Shown: piece by piece, positions 25,087 to 27,040 of the stretch
How positions within the stretch are numbered: position 1 is the first letter of the stretch
How the letters are laid out: the number at the start of each line of letters is the position of its first letter
NCBI GenBank assembly: GCA_947303055.1
Contig: CAMYXV010000007.1
Location: 1-40,715, forward strand
Source of the DNA: an uncultured Bacteroidales bacterium
GTDB lineage: Bacteria; Bacteroidota; Bacteroidia; Bacteroidales; F082
DNA: 40,715 bases
Reading direction: 5' to 3'
The notes under the pieces: generated by a model
Told to the model about the DNA's origin: nothing
Seen by the model: only the letters and a program-made list of their open reading frames with translations
Databases searched by the model: none
Position numbers and translations under genes: made by a program

Positions 25087-26520
25087 ATGAGAAAGATTAC
25101 GACAATCGCAATGGCACTCATGATGGGCATGGTGATGCTCGTCTCGTGCAACAAGGACAAGGACAACGATGGTAAGGCTGTCTTCCACGCCACCATTGAG
25201 TCGCGGACGCAGGACAGGACCTACCTCGACCCCGTGAACGGCCAAGGCCAGGTGAAATGGATGGACGGCGACCAGATCCGTATCTACAACGGCAACGGCG
25301 AGGATGCTGTGTTCACCCTGACGTCGGGCGCGAACACCACCAACGGCACGTTCACCTACGCAGGCGAATTCGATATGGTGCCGCCTTATTTGGCGGTCTA
25401 TCCCATCACGGCCAGATATGTGGACGGCAGATCCACCTTCAGGGTGTCCACCGTGCAGAACCTCACCGAGACCGGCACTTTCGCCAACGGCGCGAATCCC
25501 ATGCTGGCCTACGGCACAGGCGACAACCTGTATTTCCAGAACCTCTGCGGCGGCTTGGGCATCCGCCTGTATGGCAACGCACATGTGAGCAGCATCGCCA
25601 TCATGGACGTTGAAGGCGCTAAGCTGAACGGCCAGTTTATGGTCGAGGTCGAGGATGCAGGCTTGGAGTCTTATCCTTACGGCAAAGAGGGCAATAACTT
25701 GGTCACCTTGACCTGCGACGTGACTTTGTCGCCGACCGACACCACGGACTTCTACGCCGTGTTGCCCGTGGGCGTGCTGTGCAATGGTGTCCTTGTGGAG
25801 ATTTACGACGGTGAGACCCAAGTCGGCGAAATATCGCTTCCGGATAGCCACGCGGCACAAGTGATGCGCAACACCATAAAGAGTTTCCCCCCTGTTGAAG
25901 TGACAGTTGGCGGTGGCGACGAGCACGAATACGTCGACCTCGGCCTGCCGAGCGGCCTGCTGTGGGCCACCTGCAACGTGGGAGCCGACACGCCCGAAGT
26001 TTACGGCGACTACTTCGCCTGGGGCGAGACCACGCCGAAGGACACCTACAACTGGAGCACCTACCAGTACTGCAACGGCAGCTACAACACGATGACCAAG
26101 TACTGCCAAAACTCCAGCTACGGCTACAACGGCTTCACCGACGACCTGACCACCTTGTTGCCCGAGGACGATGCCGCCACGGCCAACTGGGGCGAGGGCT
26201 GGCGCATGCCCACCAAGGCGGAGTTTGAGGAACTCTACAACAACACGACCGTGACCTGGACGCAGCAGAACGGCGTGAACGGTCGTCTCTTCACCGCCGC
26301 CAACGGCAACAGTATCTTCCTGCCCGCTGCGGGCTACCGCAACAATAGCAGTCTCTTCACTGCAGGGAGCTACGGGTACTACTGGTCGAGTTCGCTCGAC
26401 ACGGACGACCCGTACGACGCGTGGTACTTCTACTTCGGTTCGGACTATTGCGGCATGAGCGACGACTACCGCTACTATGGGCAGTCTGTCCGAGCAGTGC
26501 GTTCTTCTGGGCAGAACTAA
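25087..26520 (+). CDS. Surface lipoprotein: fimbrillin-like N-terminus plus C-terminal FISUMP / C-type-lectin-like domain; candidate DGR target protein
   Basis: Lipobox MLVSCNKDKD; EYVDLGLPSGLLWATCNVGADTPEVYGDYFAWGETTPK; WRMPTKAEFEEL; LPAAGYRNNSSLFTAGSYGYYWSSSLDTDDPYDAWYFYFGSDYCGMSDDYRYYGQSVRAVRSSGQN. Confidence 0.85.
   Translation: MRKITTIAMALMMGMVMLVSCNKDKDNDGKAVFHATIESRTQDRTYLDPVNGQGQVKWMDGDQIRIYNGNGEDAVFTLTSGANTTNGTFTYAGEFDMVPPYLAVYPITARYVDGRSTFRVSTVQNLTETGTFANGANPMLAYGTGDNLYFQNLCGGLGIRLYGNAHVSSIAIMDVEGAKLNGQFMVEVEDAGLESYPYGKEGNNLVTLTCDVTLSPTDTTDFYAVLPVGVLCNGVLVEIYDGETQVGEISLPDSHAAQVMRNTIKSFPPVEVTVGGGDEHEYVDLGLPSGLLWATCNVGADTPEVYGDYFAWGETTPKDTYNWSTYQYCNGSYNTMTKYCQNSSYGYNGFTDDLTTLLPEDDAATANWGEGWRMPTKAEFEELYNNTTVTWTQQNGVNGRLFTAANGNSIFLPAAGYRNNSSLFTAGSYGYYWSSSLDTDDPYDAWYFYFGSDYCGMSDDYRYYGQSVRAVRSSGQN
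26341..26517 (+). other. Candidate DGR variable repeat (VR) with downstream IMH-like end (approximate bounds)
   Basis: At 26398-26478 the exposed positions are GAC, TAC, AGC, TGC, GGC, TAT, GGT, i.e. all reachable from AAC/AAT by adenine substitution, set in an A-poor scaffold (TGG TCG AGT TCG CTC ... GCG TGG .. TTC ..). Followed by GGGCAGTCTGTCCGAGCAGTGCGTTCTTCTGGGCAG. Confidence 0.6.
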
Positions 26521-26553
26521 CCCTTGTTCCGTTACGGGCAAGACAGGCATAGG

Positions 26554-26618
26554 CGAAAAAGCCGTCGGGCGGGGCGCGCACAGGGTGCGCCACACGGCCC
26601 CGCGCGGCGGGTTTTTCG
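26554..26618 (+). terminator. GC-rich imperfect palindrome just downstream of FISUMP gene (possible bidirectional terminator or DGR-associated hairpin)
   Basis: CGAAAAAGCCGTCGGGCGGGGC (26554-26575) vs GCCCCGCGCGGCGGGTTTTTCG (26597-26618), 18/22 complementary; inner hairpin GCGCAC-agg-GTGCGC (26576-26590); A-run and T-run at the ends. Confidence 0.6.
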
Positions 26619-26654
26619 TAGGCAAATCATTCAACCAGCCGCGCATGTCAAAGC

Positions 26655-26758: not shown

Positions 26759-27040
26759 ATGAAAACCTATTGGGTATATATGATGCAGAGCGCCAATGGC
26801 AGAGCCTTATACACAGGTGTTACCAATAACCTTGATAGGCGAGTTAGAGAGCATAAGGATGGTTGTGGTTCTGCTTTTACGGCTAGGTATAAGTGCCACA
26901 AGTTGGTATATTATGAAGATTTCGGGTTGATAGATCAGGCGATTGTTAGAGAAAAGGAGATCAAAAATATGACCAGAGCCTCTAAGGAAGAGCTCATTGA
27001 TACTATCAATCCAGAAAGAATAGACTTATTTGAATCTTGA
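26759..27040 (+). CDS. GIY-YIG nuclease superfamily protein (93 aa, UvrC-N/URI type)
   Basis: MKTYWVYMMQSANGRALYTGVTNNLDRRVREHKDGCGSAFTARYKCHKLVYYEDF...AIVREKEIKNMTRASKEELIDTINP; WVYMM...LYTGVTN is the GIY-YIG core. Confidence 0.9.
   Translation: MKTYWVYMMQSANGRALYTGVTNNLDRRVREHKDGCGSAFTARYKCHKLVYYEDFGLIDQAIVREKEIKNMTRASKEELIDTINPERIDLFES

Follow-up and report, generated by a model that had tools for sequence, protein, structure and literature searches.

The 477-residue open reading frame at positions 25,087-26,520 (plus strand) of the window, the whole 40,715-nt stretch of DNA analyzed here, is very probably a target of a diversity-generating retroelement (DGR), which is the best explanation of its 3' end. 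A DGR reverse transcriptase (RT), either ancestrally or in the present-day population, would have copied the RNA of a template repeat (TR) with AAC or AAT at the variable codons. Misreading of the template adenines by the RT and replacement of the variable repeat (VR) by the resulting cDNA would have left Tyr, Asp, Gly, Ser, Phe and Thr residues at the C-type-lectin-like Lcl_C end of what is probably an outer-membrane lipoprotein, where the rewritten codons may form a ligand-binding surface. A bipartite hairpin 3' of the stop codon would mark the VR for retrohoming. The RT, the TR RNA and a MutS-I-like accessory protein would reside in the portion of the genome absent from the assembly or on a mobile element, or would have been lost. 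An earlier note on this DNA had proposed a DGR variable repeat and this reading is borne out: homologous TRs beside DGR RTs have Asn codons where the variable columns were inferred, the differences among related VRs are concentrated in the first two bases of those codons, with few in the third base or the scaffold, and the VR is followed by a target hairpin of the DGR type.

The probable target gene and its variable codons

Contig C7, which makes up the window, belongs to a 58% complete assembly of 2.18 Mb in 198 contigs, and housekeeping genes surround the target gene. A lipobox (LVSC, residues 18-21, positions 25,138-25,149, plus strand), read off the translation, suggests that the product is a lipoprotein, probably of the outer membrane. 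The C-terminal domain matched the Pfam profile Lcl_C (PF07603) at residues 289-472 with 35.4 bits (cut-off 34.9), whereas the FISUMP profiles TIGR02145 (28.2 bits, curated cut-off 41.65) and PF09603 (20.8 bits, cut-off 33.9) stayed below threshold. By these scores the target files under Lcl_C and outside the FISUMP family TIGR02145. The previous description of the gene as encoding a fimbrillin/FISUMP lipoprotein is to be corrected in its family names; a profile search of the N-terminus gave no fimbrillin family match. Of five AlphaFold2 models of the domain, built from 72 homologues, the best had a pLDDT of 94.6 and the others scored lower. The top Foldseek match was the C-terminal domain of Legionella Lcl (E=0.1, poor superposition), followed by some C-type-lectin-like venom proteins, and a PDB sequence search gave no match. 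The predicted C-type-lectin-type fold rests mainly on the Pfam Lcl_C assignment.

A VR gene is found at the syntenic place in genome G072, between FolP/CdaA and DUF1599, the neighbors being 84-85% (FolP/CdaA) and 97% (DUF1599) identical to those of the window. A module composed of the domain plus the hairpin (25,921-26,631, plus strand) is kept in the G072 gene, the blastn match (76.8%) being limited to that stretch, whereas the N-termini of the two proteins share only 38% amino acid identity. A GIY-YIG-like ORF (26,759-27,040) that lies between the VR gene and DUF1599 in the window was not found at the syntenic G072 place. Similar ORFs lie near a VR at locus L131 and near an RT fragment at L106.

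The VR spans 26,317-26,517 (plus strand), from the codons for FLPAAG to a CAG-AAC end, as delimited by codon-by-codon homology to the TRs of L279, L272, G033 and G142. Its 3' end, CAGAACTAA (26,512-26,520, plus strand), is IMH-like, a role suggested by its position, and reads CAGCACTTG or CAGCCCTTG in the TRs. Within the VR, TR alignment and codon reading place 20 variable codons (residues 417-464, positions 26,335-26,478, plus strand), all of which are NNY and none of which encodes Asn. The C-terminus quoted in the earlier note agrees with the translation of the 25,087-26,520 frame and, when the sequence was re-read, the codons named there were right and no AAC or AAT codon was found between 26,398 and 26,478. 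The variable zone begins further upstream, at 26,335, because codons 417, 424, 425, 429 and 431 (26,335-26,379) are also template-Asn columns. Derivation from Asn templates, which had been put forward for all of the listed codons, holds for the 20 columns but not for GAC-440, GAC-453 and TGC-455, none of which is Asn in the known TRs; TAT-464, for its part, is already encoded by the closest TR.

A search of 85,000 named genomes for a TR pattern gave further TRs located beside RTs in rumen Bacteroidales. The TRs closest in scaffold to the window VR are those of L279 and L272. Relative to the L279 TR, 19 of the 20 template Asn codons are changed in the window and the third base is the same in all 20, with three AAT codons giving T-ending codons and the rest C-ending codons. 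Mismatches to this TR, which comes from another genome, fall at 26 of 55 adenines and at 16 of 128 other bases (Fisher p=1.5e-6). The 16 differences at bases other than A and the family of origin count against the DGR reading, the best match to L279 among the genomes examined being G437, a member of another family. So do the lack of RT, TR and accessory-gene matches in the assembly and the unusual loop and outer mismatches of the window hairpin. That the best TR is found in another family suggests horizontal movement. The G033 TR is FLPAAGNRWDSELNNAGSNGNYWSRSLNTDNPNNAWNLNFNSDDCNMNNNNRNNGFSVRPVR, and at those Asn columns the window residues are not Asn.

The comparative set consisted of 103 VR-like genes, mostly of the same genus, picked by similarity to the window. 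At the 20 variable columns the mean entropy of the first, second and third codon base was 1.8, 1.5 and 0.91 bits, respectively, versus 0.56, 0.47 and 1.13 bits in scaffold columns. Ordinary coding divergence shows the opposite pattern to that of the variable columns. The third base was C or T in 93% of the pooled variable-column cells versus 60% in the scaffold. Note that these cells are not independent events, because the genes are related and were selected by window similarity, although choosing genes in this manner does not produce a contrast between codon positions. Between the window and its nearest gene (G071), 16 of 40 first and second positions of variable codons differ, as against 1 of 20 third positions and 8 of 102 scaffold positions. 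The VR gene of G037, G038 and G145, for which no hairpin element was reported, served as negative control and gave 0 of 40 differences at positions 1 and 2 whereas 7-15 of 102 scaffold positions differ. At these loci (L157, L156 and L164, respectively) all 20 variable codons are frozen across three species, and thus the codons are not intrinsically fast. The species-level pattern fits variation confined to template adenines.

An ordinary Lcl_C/FISUMP adhesin could mimic A-to-N changes in the absence of any DGR if selection or recombination varied the exposed loop residues and a preference for Tyr, Asp, Gly and Ser were combined with a bias to C-ending codons. The caveat on codon preference raised previously is well founded, as pyrimidines end 63% of codons in the rest of the gene (versus 20 of 20 variable codons, p ~1e-4), and other FISUMP proteins have similar ends. 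We nevertheless consider this explanation highly improbable. It is already contradicted by the agreement of all 20 third bases with the AAT or AAC of the TR codons, the scrambling of positions 1 and 2 with retention of position 3 and scaffold, the frozen columns of the hairpin-less orthologues and the Asn codons that TRs beside RTs carry at those columns. These comparative tests are much stronger evidence than is the pyrimidine count.

A bipartite hairpin 3' of the gene

An element common to the window and many VR genes, TAACCYTTGTTCCGTTACGGGC..., lies immediately 3' of the stop codon. It consists of a conserved spacer, TAACCCTTGTTCCGTTACGGGC... (26,518-26,552, plus strand; alignment A1), followed by a bipartite hairpin of 27 predicted pairs (26,553-26,619, plus strand), which folding and covariation resolve into an outer stem, a 6-nt bulge and an inner stem. 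In the family fold the outer stem is about 20-24 bp, the bulge is on the 3' side, and the inner GC-rich stem of 6 bp is closed by a loop that is mostly GGNA. The window copy is peculiar in that three outer positions are mismatched and the inner hairpin (GCGCAC-AGG-GTGCGC, 26,576-26,590, plus strand) has a 3-nt AGG loop. Double compensatory changes were seen at 18 of the 25 consensus pairs. Pairing was present in 95.2% of hairpin cells, compared with 84.4% in shuffles and 36-53% when the alignment was slid, and double-change cells numbered 87 versus 21.6. No Rfam match was found for the element. A covariance model matched the window at 26,518-26,621 (103.7 bits) and gave matches in 33 of 100 genus genomes, the window genome included, with up to eight per genome. 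The window genome has two copies, those of the window and contig C66, both behind VR genes.

The BPP-1 DGR requires a hairpin after the VR, with an 8-bp GC-rich stem and a GAAA loop, in which pairing matters but the stem sequence is free, and phage DGR hairpins have stems of 7-10 bp, GRNA loops and spacings of 4-34 bp (PMC3240598). As in BPP-1, the window VR is at the 3' end of its gene, the changes are adenine-directed and the hairpin lies just downstream, with a GC-rich inner stem of variable sequence and a family loop (mostly GGNA) that recalls the 5'-GRNA of BPP-1 (PMC3240598). Unlike that of BPP-1, the window hairpin is bipartite, with the outer stem and bulge around the inner stem, begins 35 nt after the VR and has the AGG loop. 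The window target is moreover a chromosomal lipoprotein gene with no RT or TR found in the assembly. The element looks like an enlarged version of the BPP-1-type target hairpin, and its composite form looks new.

The hairpin could instead be a bidirectional transcription terminator or a REP-like repeat unrelated to DGR targeting. A GC-rich stem with A and T runs right behind a stop codon would suit such a role, and the tests of the hairpin are purely computational. We think this unlikely, given that both copies in the window genome and nearly all re-examined copies in relatives stand behind FISUMP-type VR genes (the gene end was clearly of the FISUMP type at 13 of 15 re-examined loci; of the other two, L247 matched only in part and L231 not at all). 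Furthermore, the 6-nt bulge is kept, the loop is mostly GGNA, no copy was seen after a TR at the TR loci examined, and place and loop type are those of the BPP-1 target hairpin. In more than one family, cassettes that include an RT likewise have the element behind their VRs, and the window combines an IMH-like end with the bipartite hairpin as those cassettes do. Most likely, then, by analogy to BPP-1, the predicted role of the hairpin is to mark the VR for retrohoming, and its bipartite form lends itself to studying what retrohoming recognizes.

Cassettes, template repeats and targets across the genus

The assembly of the window genome (58% complete) gave no match to RVT_1 or to the G033 RT, and no TR was found in it with all DNA candidates scored. 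A search of this 58% complete genome with the G033 MutS-like protein, run with no positive control, gave no match to a DGR accessory gene. A match to the TR on contig C118 was rejected because it lies inside an alpha-galactosidase-like gene. The earlier statement that the window contains neither an RT nor a second copy of the segment is correct and extends to the rest of the assembly, but "orphan" can be proved only for the assembly and not for the organism, because the genome is 58% complete. The template repeat that the earlier note had proposed to look for was likewise not found in this 58% complete assembly, but matching TRs stand beside DGR RTs in other rumen Bacteroidales.

When the genus was scanned for pairs of segments whose differences are nearly confined to adenines, TR/VR pairs turned up at many RT loci; at the other RVT_1 loci, L029-L058, the scan gave none. 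The G033 contig, from the MAG RGIG4870 of roe deer rumen, has the order VR, hairpin, MutS-I-like ORF (PF01624, 19.4 bits, just below the cut-off of 20.6), TR and RT; another VR lies 6 kb beyond. Of the 48 adenines of the TR, 20 are changed in one VR and 22 in the other, while its 132 other bases are unchanged in both. The G033 RT has the motifs IGNLTSQ and YVDD, which we take to be a variant known for DGR RTs. Relatives of the RT share at most 41% identity on phages and at most 33% on plasmids, and the target domain had no match in phage records. Complete MSL-type cassettes of rumen Bacteroidales (G033/RGIG4870, L263, L272, L275 and L279) share with the window the VR scaffold, the kind of 3' hairpin and TR Asn columns that correspond to the window variable codons. 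Unlike the window, they have VR, MutS-I-like gene, TR and RT at one locus. Both targets of G033 (L088:1451-13201, contig C16) are protein-kinase/Lcl_C fusions, whereas that of the window is a lipoprotein. FHA-like, PP2C-like and caspase-like ORFs share the cluster of the G033 targets, an arrangement reminiscent of hypermutated sensor systems (PMC10907252).

Targets outnumber RTs in the genus. A cognate (G033-like) RT is present in only 2 (G033 and G058) of the 13 hairpin-bearing genus genomes with a completeness of 95% or more and a contamination of 5% or less, and G048 and G066 gave no RVT_1 match at all. Often all that RT-less targets retain of the accessory gene is its initial 34-83 codons. 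Such 5' stumps lie downstream of VR and hairpin, with no cognate RT, at L060, L063, L075, L133, L073, L131, L072, L076 and L170; several end near codon 42 and three share the same downstream junction. In G142 a TR is present with no RT behind it, and a VR on another contig differs from the TR at 26 adenines and at 0 of 133 other bases. The sister species G057 and G034 are 98.5% identical upstream of the VR (flanks 98.5-99%) and share the accessory-gene truncation point, with a 42-codon stump in the locus, but differ at 22 of 38 variable first and second bases versus 3 of 102 scaffold bases. Rewriting therefore seems to have continued after the split, although recombination could also have acted there because the stumps differ at 31 of 126 bases. 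In G034 (estimated 100% complete) neither RT nor TR was found, the TR search having scored few candidates per genome. The multi-genome DNA searches scored six, eight and two candidates per genome, and a TR may therefore have been missed in relatives. One-mismatch TR-pattern matches in G034, G055 and G065 were rejected, as they fall in one outer-membrane, TonB-receptor-like protein.

Treponema denticola isolates lacking RT and TR retain leftover DGR target genes (PMC4891356). Like that species, the genus has VR-signature targets without the core cassette, remote targets and repeated gain and loss (PMC4891356). Unlike it, the targets here occur in many species of one genus and come with a covarying hairpin and stumps of the accessory gene, and their variable codons differ between sister species. 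The scale of RT-less targets in the genus looks new. Metagenome surveys that require a VR beside an RT miss distant targets, as one such survey says of itself (PMC8144416), and codon-position entropy together with the target-hairpin covariance model provides a way to spot DGR targets with no nearby RT or TR.

The present status of the window copy can be read in several manners, all of which are sub-cases of the DGR-target explanation rather than rivals to it. The VR may be retired, RT and TR having been lost from a lineage in which a complete cassette once served the gene, with the signature now fixed. This has a substantial chance of being correct, somewhat short of even. It would account for the missing RT and TR (in an assembly seen to 58% only, which weakens the argument), the near-complete relatives with no RT, and the stumps and the TR without RT, which are traces of cassette loss. 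The second hairpin-bearing VR gene of this genome (C66:1741-2458, L024) looks decayed because it has an in-frame TAG in the domain and a less regular hairpin, and this, together with the altered loop and stem mismatches of the window, gives a slight lean towards retirement. In the other direction, decay of the frozen type is absent and rewriting seems to have gone on in G057/G034 after the species split. The intact ORF and the 20 NNY codons argue for either recent activity or recent loss.

The VR may also be live, the DGR acting on it at present through an RT and TR in the unassembled 42% of the genome, possibly at a distant locus; we entertain this only tentatively. Remote VRs are real, as the G142 VR and the second G033 VR show, but with cognate RTs in so few near-complete hairpin carriers the prior for an RT in the window genome is low. 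That shared or mobile machinery serves the window VR is rather doubtful. An equally speculative extension is a standing arrangement in which many chromosomes of the genus keep hairpin-marked targets that are rewritten in trans by mobile or shared RT/TR units mostly absent from single chromosomes; the G057/G034 locus would be an instance. A genus with more targets than RTs makes such sharing testable.

Two further loci concern other repeat types. On contig C42 of the window genome (2803-3027, L028) a FISUMP-type C-terminus is rich in NNY codons for Tyr, Ser and Ile (SCYIYTGYQYYYYY...) with some non-NNY codons; it resembles another DGR class and is possibly an older orphan VR. In the same genus, L095-L099, L103 and L104 have a different TR class with frames such as WNNNARNCRVSNRNNNTPDNRNNN and clean adenine-only mismatches, the targets of which are perhaps of the formylglycine-enzyme type.
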